Assembly: GCA_949388605.1 (NCBI GenBank)
Contig: CASKJV010000016.1
Span: 1-39,045 of the forward strand
Direction: 5' to 3'
Origin: an uncultured Clostridia bacterium
Lineage (GTDB): Bacteria; Bacillota; Clostridia; TANB77; CAG-508
Length of the DNA: 39,045 nt
The translations under genes and the position numbers were made by a program. This document shows positions 4,092 through 8,584 of this stretch, one piece after another. How positions within the stretch are numbered: the stretch's first letter is position 1; each line of letters starts with the position of its first letter. The notes under the pieces were generated by a model. It did no database searches. It had not been told where the DNA came from and was given only the letters and a program-made list of their open reading frames with translations.

Positions 4092-4976
4092 ATGATTAAA
4101 GACTTTACAATAGGAAGAAGTGATTTTTCTGTTACAGTGTATGTACCATGGAACTGTACAAACAATTGCAAGTTTTGTTCTTCAAAGAAAGATTATAATC
4201 TAATTAGAAGTGATTTTGAAAAGCTAAAAGAAAGCTTGCGGTTAATACGGAAGTCCATTTTACCAATTGTTGTTTTTACTGGTGGTGAACCAAGTGCAGA
4301 TGTTGAAAAATTACGAGAATTATTATCAATAGTAGATAATAAGATAGTTTATATTAATACAAGTTTACCCAAAAGAAATTGCAAAGAGTTTATTGAACTT
4401 GTAAATTCTACTGATTGTGTGAAAAGTATTAGTATTTCTCGCCATCGACATTCATATGTTGAGGATTCAACAATTTTACATCAAATTGCAGAAGATAAAG
4501 TAATTGCAACAATAAAAAAGCCTGTTAGAATTAATGTAGTTTCACAGGGAGAAGATACTTTTTCTGTTGACAGTTTAAAAGTATATGTTGATAGATGGAG
4601 TAAAATTGCAAAACTTAAAGGTGGATCACAATCCCTATTATTAAATTTAAGAGGTAACTATGTTGCACAGAACAAAGCAGAATTACATGAGATGACTAAC
4701 TGTAAAGTTGTTAATGATTTAGCTATTGCTTACTATTATAAATCTCATAGTTTTTGCAATGTTTGTGATACTTGTACCTTTATAAAATTTGATGAAAACG
4801 GAGAAGATGAGTTAATTATTAATTATCATCGAGGACTGATGACTACAGCTATACCATTTGGAAATATTGTAGAAATTAATGACCTGATTATATTACAAAA
4901 TGGAGATATATGTTACGACTGGGATGGCAAAAAAGAGAATATATCTATATTTTTGAATATGATACACCAATATTAA
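4092..4976 (+). CDS. Radical SAM enzyme, probable peptide maturase
   Basis: 294 residues. The radical SAM iron-sulfur motif is CTNNCKFC (Cys22, Cys26, Cys29), followed by the SAM-binding glycine motif FTGGEP (62-67). A second Cys set lies in the C-terminal third: one in MTNC, three in CNVCDTC, and one in GDICYDWD. This suggests an auxiliary iron-sulfur cluster of twitch/SPASM type, although it does not match the standard SPASM spacing. No RiPP recognition domain is obvious. The start follows GGGGTG. The gene lies 22 bases before a small Cys-Gly-Gly repeat protein and shares its promoter, so that peptide is the likely substrate. The exact reaction, such as thioether or C-C crosslinking, cannot be told from the sequence. 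Confidence 0.85.
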   Translation: MIKDFTIGRSDFSVTVYVPWNCTNNCKFCSSKKDYNLIRSDFEKLKESLRLIRKSILPIVVFTGGEPSADVEKLRELLSIVDNKIVYINTSLPKRNCKEFIELVNSTDCVKSISISRHRHSYVEDSTILHQIAEDKVIATIKKPVRINVVSQGEDTFSVDSLKVYVDRWSKIAKLKGGSQSLLLNLRGNYVAQNKAELHEMTNCKVVNDLAIAYYYKSHSFCNVCDTCTFIKFDENGEDELIINYHRGLMTTAIPFGNIVEINDLIILQNGDICYDWDGKKENISIFLNMIHQY

Positions 4977-4998
4977 AACAATAAAGGAGGAAAACATT

Positions 4999-5244
4999 AT
5001 GTCATGTGGTGGAAGTAGTAGTTTTGGAGGTTGTGGTGGTTCTTCTGAAATTAGGATACCAATAGAATCAGGAGGCTGTGGTGGAGCAAGAAAATATTTG
5101 TACGCTAATAAACGCAGTAGCGGATGTGGAGGAGATAGTCACACTACATTCTCAGTAGATTCAGGAGGTTGTGGTGGAAGAATTCCTGCGTCTAATGAAG
5201 ACATTAGACGGGCTTTTGAGTATAATAGAAAACGTGGATGGTAG
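4999..5244 (+). CDS. Cys-Gly-Gly repeat peptide, candidate RiPP precursor
   Basis: 81 residues behind a strong ribosome binding site (AAAGGAGG). Five Cys (3, 12, 27, 43, 58) are each followed by Gly-Gly, and four are also preceded by Gly. The repeated unit is roughly (S)GGCGG, and the last four cysteines are spaced 15-16 residues apart. Ser-rich and charged linkers separate the units. The C-terminal 16 residues, ending in a Trp, are highly charged and probably helical, so they could be a recognition tail. There is no signal peptide. Because it directly follows a radical SAM gene, it is probably the substrate; this is inference. Alternatively it could be a metal-binding protein. Confidence 0.8.
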   Translation: MSCGGSSSFGGCGGSSEIRIPIESGGCGGARKYLYANKRSSGCGGDSHTTFSVDSGGCGGRIPASNEDIRRAFEYNRKRGW

Positions 5245-6496: not shown

Positions 6497-6937
6497 ATGG
6501 CTGAAAGAAAACTTATACACGTATATGTAACTCACAATCGGAGGAAATACAGTGAAGTAACTATACCTGCTGACATTAATGAGGTGGAGTTTAAAGCTTT
6601 GCTTAGGGATTTGGGACATATTTCTTCTTTTCGCAATTCTTATCTTACAACAAAAGTGTATTTGGAAGATAAAAATAAGAAGAATTTTAAAGAGATTTGT
6701 ACAGACGAATATCGTTCTTTAGAGGAATTAGGCATTGTAGAATGTAGTTTCGTTTTTATTGAAGAGGGAGAGCACGAACCTTGTCCACGAACTGAAGTTG
6801 TTTACAGAAGAGCTGAATCTATGAGGTGTTTGTATGGTTGCCCGATGGCAAATAGTGTTGAAGAAGCAGTAAATCAGGCTGAGAAGTATTCTGAAAATGA
6901 AAGTTCTGTGACAAGTGGTAAGATTATAATTGATTAA
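6497..6937 (+). CDS. Small protein with possible ubiquitin-like fold, upstream of radical SAM-JAMM fusion
   Basis: 146 residues behind AAAGGAG. Residues 1-95 read as beta-beta-alpha-beta-beta: LIHVYVTHN, YSEVTIPAD, VEFKALLRDLG, TTKVYLEDK, then YRSLEELGIVECSFVFIEEG. The end of this stretch recalls the 'SLxExGI' turn of beta-grasp ubiquitin-like proteins. This is a fold guess from pattern only. The tail after residue 95 is different: it has CPRTEVVYRRAE and MRCLYGCPMANS (three Cys), then an acidic Ser-rich end, and it lacks a C-terminal Gly-Gly. Sixteen bases separate it from the radical SAM-JAMM gene on the same transcript. It may be a substrate of that enzyme, with the N-terminal fold as carrier and the Cys tail as the modified part, or simply a partner subunit. 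Confidence 0.75.
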   Translation: MAERKLIHVYVTHNRRKYSEVTIPADINEVEFKALLRDLGHISSFRNSYLTTKVYLEDKNKKNFKEICTDEYRSLEELGIVECSFVFIEEGEHEPCPRTEVVYRRAESMRCLYGCPMANSVEEAVNQAEKYSENESSVTSGKIIID

Positions 6938-6952
6938 CTGAAAGGAGATATT

Positions 6953-8584
6953 ATGTGTAATTACTCAAATGGTAAAAATTCACTGCATACTCTCTTTTTT
7001 GAAGTAACTAGCCGATGTAATGCACTCTGCGACCATTGTGGTAGCAGGTGCACAGCTAGCCAAAAAGATGAATTATCTTCTGAAATTTTCAAAAAAGTGC
7101 TTGATAGTGTGGCAAAAAATTTTGGGACAAGCTCTATTATGCTAAATATTACAGGTGGAGAACCACTTATAAGAAAAGATTTGTTTGAAATTACAGCATA
7201 TGCAGATAGCCTTGGCTTCAAATGGGGATTAGTAACTAATGGAATGCTAATAACAAATGATGTTATTAGCAAAATGAGAGAAACACACATGTCAACAATT
7301 ACGATTAGTCTTGATGGAATGAAAAAGACTCATGAAAAATTTAGACATGTACCAGGTTCTTTTGATAGAATTATTTCTTCTATTGAAAAGCTAAAAAAGG
7401 CTAATTTTGTTGAACATATTCAAGTTACTTTTATTGCAACTAAAAAGAATATTTCTGAATTACCAGAAGTTTATCGGCTATTAAGTATGCTTAAAATTGA
7501 TTCTCTTAGAATTAGTGGGATAGATCCTATTGGCAGAGCTAAAGATAATAAAGACTTAATGTTGAGTACAGAAGATTATTACTTTTTATTTGATTTTATA
7601 AAAAAGCATTCATCTTCTGAGCTACCAGTAGTATGGAGTTGTACTCATTATTTTGGTAATACTGAAAATACTGTAGATCCAACTGGCAAGAAGTTTGCCT
7701 GCTACACAGGAATTCATGTTGCATCAGTTCTTTCTAATGGGGATATTTTTGGATGTCCTAACATTCCAAGAAGGAAAGAATTGATACAAGGCAATGTCCT
7801 AAAAGATGATTTTTGCGAAGTTTGGAAAAATAAATTTGAATTTTATAGAAATCCAAATAGAACAAAGGCTAAGCAATGTGAAAGTTGTGAGTATTGGAAG
7901 TATTGTAAAGGAGATAGTTTTCATACTTTTGATTTTGAAACTAATACACCACAATTTTGTTACAAAAAAATTTTCAAGAAAAAAGATGATTTGAAAAAAA
8001 TGAAAGATGTATCATATAATGATATTCTTACATTATTAATGAAAAAAAATGGAGAAATGCAACATCTTACAATAGAACCAGCTAAGTTTAAAGCATCTAA
8101 AACAGTAATATTTACGCCACAAGCTACAAAGGATTTATACAGTATTTTCCATTATGGAGAATGTCATCCTAGTAATTTGTATGAAGAGCAAGCTGGATTA
8201 ATCGGAAATAATTTTAATGAAGTTTCTTTAGTGAAATATGTTGTGCCAGCAATCTTATATAATCGAGCTAGAAATATGGCCACAATGGATGATTTTTGTT
8301 TAAGGCAGATTATGGACGAAATCTCAATTATAAATGAGAATATACCTAAATCTGATTCGATTTATCAAGATTTGTTTGGAAATGTAGAATTTCTTGGATT
8401 TGCACATAGTCATCCACAAGAAACTGATTTTAGATTTAGTACTCATGATACAAAAAATCATAAAGATTTTGTAAAAAAATTTGGCGATTTTATATCCATT
8501 ATCTTAAATCCGCAAAAGGAAAAAATTGTAGGATTTTTAGGAGAAGAATGTGAGCAAGTAAAATTAATATTGTTATCTAAATAA
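6953..8584 (+). CDS. Radical SAM/SPASM enzyme fused to a JAMM (JAB/MPN) metalloprotease domain
   Basis: 543 residues in two parts. Residues 1-330 are a radical SAM/SPASM enzyme: CNALCDHC (Cys22, 26, 29), the TGGEP motif, and a Cys-rich C-terminal cluster including CESCEYWKYC and a later FCYKK. SPASM enzymes mostly modify peptides or proteins. Residues about 380-543 are a JAMM zinc-protease domain: a Glu at 411/412 in YEEQAGLIG, then HSHP (His485, His487), seven residues, Ser496 and Asp499, which matches HxHx7SxxD exactly. JAMM proteases cut after ubiquitin-like or sulfur-carrier domains or at isopeptide bonds. The start follows GAAAGGAG. With the small protein just upstream, this suggests a modify-and-cleave enzyme. 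I know of no described system with this domain order. Confidence 0.9.
   Translation: MCNYSNGKNSLHTLFFEVTSRCNALCDHCGSRCTASQKDELSSEIFKKVLDSVAKNFGTSSIMLNITGGEPLIRKDLFEITAYADSLGFKWGLVTNGMLITNDVISKMRETHMSTITISLDGMKKTHEKFRHVPGSFDRIISSIEKLKKANFVEHIQVTFIATKKNISELPEVYRLLSMLKIDSLRISGIDPIGRAKDNKDLMLSTEDYYFLFDFIKKHSSSELPVVWSCTHYFGNTENTVDPTGKKFACYTGIHVASVLSNGDIFGCPNIPRRKELIQGNVLKDDFCEVWKNKFEFYRNPNRTKAKQCESCEYWKYCKGDSFHTFDFETNTPQFCYKKIFKKKDDLKKMKDVSYNDILTLLMKKNGEMQHLTIEPAKFKASKTVIFTPQATKDLYSIFHYGECHPSNLYEEQAGLIGNNFNEVSLVKYVVPAILYNRARNMATMDDFCLRQIMDEISIINENIPKSDSIYQDLFGNVEFLGFAHSHPQETDFRFSTHDTKNHKDFVKKFGDFISIILNPQKEKIVGFLGEECEQVKLILLSK

Follow-up and report, generated by a model that had tools for sequence, protein, structure and literature searches.

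A conserved gene pair of gut Clostridia, encoding a ubiquitin-fold protein and a radical SAM-JAMM fusion enzyme, hints at an unfamiliar route for editing and then releasing a protein tail

In the splicease literature cited here, the known systems combine precursors bearing nif11 or nitrile-hydratase-type leaders with a PlpY partner, which is a truncated recognition element (PMC11002830). LYG and MYG are given there as natural sites of PlpXY (PMC10533398), the leader is described as not required by the splicease (PMC10533398; PMC10373908; PMC11002830), and the spliceotide products are reported to be protease inhibitors (PMC10373908; PMC11117315). Sixteen tag and site combinations in FtsZ are described, 2 of which were accepted and 14 were not; because both LYG tags were among those not accepted, LYG-x-P alone is insufficient and the context matters (PMC10533398). 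The accessible part of a review of RiPP leader proteases names no JAMM, JAB1 or M67 (PMC10885120). In the open-access literature searched, JAMM, radical SAM and RiPP came together in one paper, on mycofactocin. The open-access literature searched contained no description of a radical SAM-JAMM fusion, no mention of TIGR04133 or TIGR04134 by name, and no mention of a radical SAM enzyme with YGxP.

Proteins linked to ubiquitin folds are the substrates of JAMM enzymes, JAMM domains bind such folds, and the enzymes mature ubiquitin-like proteins and sulfur carriers. The locus described here resembles the systems of archaeal Rpn11, JAMM1/SAMP2 and Cap3 of CBASS in its JAMM fold, its ligands and its ubiquitin-fold partner, but its conserved unit has no E1 or E2 gene, its partner has no Gly-Gly tail, and its JAMM domain shares one polypeptide with a radical SAM enzyme. 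With the PlpXY, nif11 and NHLP systems it shares a SPASM radical SAM enzyme and an XYG substrate, LYG-x-P itself being present in a Nostoc nif11 precursor. In contrast to the nif11 or nitrile-hydratase leader and PlpY of the PlpXY systems, its leader is a ubiquitin fold and its enzyme carries a JAMM domain by fusion, and the chemistry assigned to it below is putative. The loci of TIGR04133 and TIGR04134 are similar in three respects: they contain the top-scoring named family for the enzyme domain of the fusion, an adjacent partner gene, and a partner with Y-G-x-P. They differ in that their enzymes have no JAMM domain, the fusion scores below the cut-off of 425, and their partner is a lipoprotein with no ubiquitin fold, whose gene precedes that of the enzyme in two loci and follows it in the third.

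The features of the locus are listed below, with positions in the window, which is the whole stretch of 39,045 nucleotides of DNA from an uncultured Clostridia bacterium that was analysed.

6497..6937, + strand: small protein gene, 146 aa (ORF); ubiquitin-fold domain and tail, proposed substrate
6497..6781, + strand: ubiquitin/beta-grasp domain, residues 1-95 (predicted structure)
6818..6934, + strand: conserved tail, residues 108-146; low model confidence except for a short predicted helix
6830..6850, + strand: LYGCPMA, residues 112-118, an invariant block and the proposed splice or modification site; Tyr113 codon at 6833-6835
6953..8584, + strand: fusion gene, 543 aa (ORF); radical SAM/SPASM enzyme with a JAMM metalloprotease domain
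7016..7039, + strand: CX3CX2C radical SAM motif, Cys22-Cys29 (ORF translation); invariant in 9/9
7700..7960, + strand: SPASM-type region, Cys250, 268, 309, 312, 318 and 336; Pfam SPASM above cut-off, invariant in 9/9
8090..8581, + strand: JAMM (MPN+) domain, about residues 380-543 (predicted structure); proposed catalytic Glu411 at 8183-8185
8405..8449, + strand: JAMM signature HSHP-x7-S-x2-D, residues 485-499 (ORF translation); ligands invariant in 9/9

Both ORFs are present where a preliminary description of this DNA had placed them (6497-6937 and 6953-8584), and the gap between them is 15 bases, not 16 as it had claimed. That description regarded the genes as a functional pair, a view that agrees with their strict pairing: the small gene lies immediately 5' of the fusion gene in 9/9 intact loci. 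Co-transcription is suggested by the gaps in these nine loci, which range from -4 to 18 bases. A shared promoter, which had also been invoked, found no backing, as a promoter scan at the window pair gave 20 promoter-like sites versus 16.7 +/- 3.8 in shuffles, that is, no signal.

A search for the fused architecture and a conserved upstream small gene brought the total to 10 loci including that of the window, of which 9 are intact pairs with the same gene order, the small gene first. The tenth (G324) is interrupted by contig ends, one contig beginning inside the fusion gene and another ending inside the small gene. The nine loci with a stated taxon come from Clostridia or Clostridium, and the sources stated for three of them are goat colon, roe deer rumen and wild mice; the two-gene unit is carried by some gut Clostridia. 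A search of 96 genomes (the window's own and its relatives) identified one second genome with both genes. Among 385 genomes drawn from the order, the JAMM domain was present in 7, and a separate search for the small protein gave strong matches in the same 7 and two weak ones (E 0.004 and 0.008), a pairing above chance. The class-wide JAMM profile search of 391 genomes returned only that of the window and a second, weak match (E 0.008 over 65 positions). A scan of genome_contigs (84,980 species) yielded at least 9 loci, seven corresponding to loci already known and two of them new (L027 and L033); this is a lower bound, since a genome is detected by the scan only if it has matches to two short peptide patterns.

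Plasmid and phage collections gave no match for the JAMM part and viral contigs no confirmed relative of it, and the plasmid and viral-contig collections gave no match for the small protein. The LYGCPMA DNA pattern occurred in 8 viral stretches, two of which have the motif within an open frame, and both of these stretches lack a radical SAM-like frame. In PHROGs the enzyme matched radical SAM families, whereas the small protein matched no family. The pairing is real and conserved, and it is undescribed in the open-access literature searched; the TIGR04133 lipoproteins may already be treated in work outside that scope, that of Scott et al. 2022 (Chem), whose subject is ribosomal beta-amino acid peptides and proteins.

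The small protein was modelled with a mean pLDDT of 70.7. Its residues 1-95, for which a beta-grasp fold had been suggested, form a predicted ubiquitin fold with ubiquitin-like domains as top matches (Foldseek E 2.5e-5; Z up to 11.6), and the tail has low confidence in the model. The tail is conserved in sequence. Across 9 full-length tailed proteins 25 positions are invariant, and seven of these form one block, L112-YGCPMA-118, which is the only fully invariant 7-residue window (9/9) and is kept in 10/10 tails once the contig-cut tenth protein is added. XYG, the splice site as defined in PMC10533398 and PMC10373908, is present as LYG in all ten tails. The residue after the Gly of LYG is Cys in 10/10 tails and is never Cys in the partners of related enzymes. 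The preliminary description had pointed to a tail with three Cys and no Gly-Gly end. Both observations hold for the window protein (C96, C111 and C115; no Gly-Gly end), and a Gly-Gly lies a little before LYG in 3/10 small proteins (L028, L033 and L070). The importance of all three Cys is not supported: C115 is the only one of them that is invariant in the 9 full-length proteins, and C111, the residue before LYGCPMA, is replaced in 3/10 tails, by Tyr in L031, Val in L033 and Ala in L070. TIGR04134 had no match to the window protein, and the NCBIfam leader models (nif11 and nitrile-hydratase-like) had none to the window protein or to those of L033 and L034 (as L025). The XYG(xP) splice-site motif, a pointer to the likely chemistry, had been overlooked in the preliminary description.

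A related motif, Y-G-x-P, recurs beside relatives of the enzyme. In the three loci seen (Parabacteroides, Phocaeicola and Treponema), TIGR04133 enzymes adjoin TIGR04134 lipoproteins, both over their cut-offs, and the three lipoproteins carry CEYGSPHA, CEYGTPSA and CYGMPEN. A TIGR04133 search of 299 phylum genomes at E 1e-40 gave four enzymes: that of the window, a closer one that is not fused (G494), and two more. The G494 enzyme adjoins a short lipoprotein-like protein with a lipobox (recognised by eye) and two VYGPPE. YG.P is therefore found in 4/4 TIGR04133-type partners, which represent fewer independent events because the three TIGR04134 proteins are homologous. With a background of 11 occurrences in 105,092 residues (326 frames of at least 150 aa, spurious frames included), the chance probability per partner is 0.009 to 0.029. 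No combined p-value is given, because homologous lipoproteins are among the partners counted, and because the motif came to light through reading by eye once the LYGCPMA block was known. Y-G-x-P was also present in 2/3 TIGR04103-type precursors. The Nostoc enzyme, over the TIGR04103 cut-off at 853 bits, follows a nif11 precursor that ends in ALYGLPPELF (LYGLPPE), and the NHLP precursors carry AYGVPIH in the G930 cluster and AYGIARP in the G857 cluster.

Other neighbours lacked the motif. There was no YG in the checked neighbour of the Agathobacter enzyme, in 2/3 Aureibacter partners, or in 5 further precursors of the Nostoc, G857 and G930 clusters. Two genes were checked in Tropicibacter, whose enzyme groups with that of Nostoc; one had no YG and the other had YG but no Pro. 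Among 8 genes near outgroup enzymes, YG occurred in 1 and YG.P in none. A TIGR04134 search of 199 phylum genomes gave 5 weak matches and 0 over the cut-off, frames of at least 60 aa in six loci from this search contained no YG.P, and G000 had no TIGR04134 match at E 0.001. That unrelated scaffolds share Y-G-x-P is a stronger point than the counts.

In the fusion protein, the intact CX3CX2C motif and the Cys-rich SPASM-type region recognised in the preliminary description were both confirmed. The motif residues are C22/C26/C29, Pfam Radical_SAM matched with E 7.7e-19 and SPASM with 25.1 bits against a cut-off of 21.5, and all 11 cysteines checked are invariant in the 9 full-length fusions. The top named family for the enzyme domain is TIGR04133 (rSAM_w_lipo) at 283.1 bits, under its curated cut-off of 425, and the fusion shares 33-36% identity with TIGR04133 enzymes. 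TIGR04103, a splicease-type family that we take to be that of PlpX, scores 108.2 bits against a cut-off of 725. It is only the 11th profile, which rules it out as nearest kin by score; the profiles above it include heme b synthase (166.5, the second-best), NirJ2 (137.8) and mycofactocin maturase (131.7).

In a 28-enzyme tree the nine fusions form one group (100/99). They join the TIGR04133 type at 99/99, with the G494 enzyme nearest to them (97/91), and the TIGR04103/TIGR03913 relatives join the fusions and the TIGR04133 type at 89/86. In a second tree, built without three long branches, this group of 20 is separate from five other enzymes at 100/100. Three of four further radical SAM proteins of the window genome were excluded from both trees, and the remaining one, with two others, from the second; heme b synthase is absent from both, though its profile is second-best for the fusion. 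A group of the fusions and the TIGR04103-type enzymes that excludes the others was rejected (p 0.0006).

The C-terminal domain of the fusion was modelled as a JAMM enzyme (pTM 0.80), and the exact signature reported earlier is there: H485-S-H487-P, seven residues, and S496-x-x-D499. Glu411, His485, His487, Ser496 and Asp499 are invariant in 9/9 full-length fusions, where Glu411 is presumably the catalytic residue, as judged by its spacing in JAMM motifs. The nearest structure was an archaeal Rpn11 homolog by E-value (1.6e-7) and BRCC36 by Z (16.2), and the structural matches also include the complexes 5lda (JAMM1-SAMP2) and 6fnn, as well as Cap3 of CBASS (9ild). The Pfam Prok-JAB profile gave 15.3 bits for the window fusion, below the cut-off of 25, and 14.5, 14.6 and 17.3 bits in three relatives, with no match listed for L027; the structural match to JAMM enzymes is nevertheless clear.

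We think it probable, with moderate confidence, that the pair is a self-contained two-gene protein-editing unit, in which a ubiquitin-fold leader carries a tail that loses Tyr113 by splicing, with the JAMM domain binding the leader and probably cleaving its tail. The small protein would be the substrate, with the ubiquitin fold as a folded leader and the splice site in its tail, and the radical SAM/SPASM domain would act at Leu-Tyr113-Gly. Tyramine splicing at Tyr113 is proposed because RCLYGCPMA of the window tail has the identical L-Y-G-x-P of the PIRPLYGLPI tag. This reading carries the caveat that, by profile score, the fusion falls under the cut-offs of both TIGR04133 and TIGR04103. A modify-then-cleave pathway acting on the small protein had been outlined in the preliminary description; the conserved tail motif, the two folds and the strict pairing support it in part, the shared promoter and the importance of three Cys drop out, and the XYG(xP) motif found beside radical SAM relatives is what allows the more specific hypothesis given here. 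None of the three outcomes that it had named as contrary was seen, namely an unrelated fold with no conserved tail, fusion homologues away from the small gene, or relatives whose JAMM domain has lost its zinc ligands.

For the JAMM domain, we infer two roles of different strength. That it grips the ubiquitin-like leader, in place of a separate recognition protein, is suggested by its presence in the same chain as the editing enzyme, by the ubiquitin-fold substrate, and by the lack of a conserved PlpY-like gene adjoining the pair. That it also cuts, probably hydrolysing the tail near the edited site to release a ketoamide product, is suggested by its intact ligands. Protease inhibition is reported for spliceotides, and the product may therefore act by disarming an intracellular protease. 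More tentatively, one polypeptide may excise tyramine from Leu-Tyr-Gly to leave an electrophilic ketoamide, after which its deubiquitinase-type JAMM domain recognises the ubiquitin fold and cuts the tail; this would be a fused machine for splicing and release, linking RiPP chemistry with ubiquitin-like proteins and needing no E1, E2 or E3, possibly with a protease-trapping product for use in conflicts between bacteria and mobile elements.

A rather unlikely alternative gives the JAMM domain no protease role here: as a docking module that stands in for a PlpY-like partner, it would bind the ubiquitin-like leader and bring the tail to the radical SAM site. The known affinity of JAMM domains for ubiquitin folds and the 5lda and 6fnn complexes among the matches are consistent with this, as are the surroundings of the pair. 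No third gene is common to more than 2 of the nine intact loci among frames of at least 90 aa (frames antisense to the pair aside). The comparison was repeated at 30-150 aa, because the Nostoc partner, which we assume from its place and size to be PlpY, has just 71 aa; the 247 frames within 2.5 kb again included none common to more than 2 loci, none of the nine loci had a relative of the Nostoc gene, and nothing resembling PlpY is conserved over that distance from the pair. Only the two sister genomes (L031 and L032) have much more in common around the pair. However, 9/9 fusions keep the zinc ligands and the Glu proposed as catalytic unchanged, which pure docking would not need.

It is unlikely that the same substrate and motif undergo another radical SAM reaction at Tyr-Gly-Cys, such as a Tyr-Cys or other cross-link, decarboxylation or epimerisation, before the JAMM domain trims the tail. 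SPASM enzymes carry out many reactions, and ten other profiles score above TIGR04103 for the fusion. A Cys-based reaction is also possible because Cys115 follows the Gly in every tail and a Cys is never at this position in the other partners. Nevertheless, what the unrelated partners have in common is Y-G-x-P and not Cys, and in the second tree the fusions fall together with the TIGR04103/TIGR03913 enzymes, the five other retained enzymes lying outside. LYG, moreover, is a natural PlpXY site (PMC10533398).

A ubiquitin-like conjugation or sulfur-carrier pathway, in which the JAMM domain cuts after Gly114 to expose ...LYG for activation and attachment and the radical SAM domain performs a side task, appears improbable. 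A ubiquitin fold with a tail beyond the Gly, next to a gene with a JAMM domain of the kind that matures such carriers, would fit it. We rate it low because there is no linked E1 or E2: among the frames compared, no third gene, E1-like, E2-like or other, is common to more than two of the nine loci, and the two ThiF matches of the genome are on other contigs, the single match over the cut-off containing two stop codons. There is also no Gly-Gly end. Finally, that a degenerate radical SAM-JAMM protein lies beside an unrelated small gene by chance is hardly credible; the pair is rare, but the co-occurrence in the same 7/385 order genomes refutes this, together with the strict gene order, the invariant ligands and motif, and the lack of a third gene common to more than two loci.

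Two sister genomes carry the pair at the same site. Between them, four flanking proteins share 94-99.5% identity, and identity is 91% for the radical SAM part, 79% for the JAMM part, 73% for the small protein, 61% for a tail-less ubiquitin-like paralog and 75% for a 214-residue protein. Rapid divergence of the parts involved in recognition would be consistent with a conflict role, but allele exchange would give the same picture. Co-variation of the ubiquitin-like and JAMM domains, given radical SAM distance, was not significant (partial r 0.30, p 0.15; without L034, 0.32, p 0.09). PADLOC gave only viperin-type radical SAM matches for the fusion and none for the small protein. The L034 locus adjoins an AbiP2 reverse transcriptase and a serine recombinase, and the L013 locus lies inside an apparent element with a relaxase and a recombinase. 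A defence role is not claimed, because the neighbours of the other loci were read by eye alone.

In summary, the gene pair hints at an unfamiliar route by which a protein tail is edited and then released. If this is true, a folded ubiquitin-like protein would be a new substrate scaffold for radical SAM backbone splicing, and a JAMM protease would be fused to the modifying enzyme, so that the recognition of ubiquitin folds by JAMM domains could be used as both the leader-recognition and the release step. A substrate site, and hence a testable reaction, is also proposed for the TIGR04133/TIGR04134 family.

Other genes lie around the gene pair, which consists of the ubiquitin-fold small-protein gene and the radical SAM/SPASM-JAMM fusion gene. 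In the window itself, and in the sister genomes L031 and L032, these include:

window 4092-5244, a radical SAM gene (294 aa) and, after it, a peptide of 81 residues in which CGG motifs recur
L032 5783-6127 and L031 9709-10047, a second, tail-less ubiquitin-like paralog
L032 8701-9345 and L031 10289-10933, a 214-aa protein near the pair

The window genes look like a separate modified-peptide pair. A search of 55 other genomes found relatives of the CGG peptide in two, and the locus comparison found none adjoining the pair at the other loci. The tail-less paralog and the 214-aa protein (no Pfam match over the cut-off) differ in position between the sister genomes and have diverged rapidly.

At L013 (6183-14506), genes read by eye as relaxase-like on one side and as a serine recombinase on the other flank the pair, which suggests that it lies within a mobile element.

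On the contig shared by L025 and L034, a serine recombinase adjoins the pair, as does:

L025 10106-11590, a reverse transcriptase of the AbiP2 defence type (PADLOC, E 3.7e-184)

Motifs resembling XYG, the tyramine-splice site of PlpXY spliceases, occur beside related enzymes:

L049 2561-2830, a short partner resembling a lipoprotein, in which VYGPPE occurs twice, adjoining the nearest unfused enzyme relative
L057 3046-3469 and L056 3702-3872, DUF1843 peptides adjoining TIGR03913-type enzymes

The lipoprotein-like partner is possibly a doubly edited substrate. Because the DUF1843 peptides hold MLYGGAM, PYGVAI and PYGAGI near their N-termini, the GDL-motif system may also act at XYG. Two of the three Aureibacter peptides are without an XYG motif.
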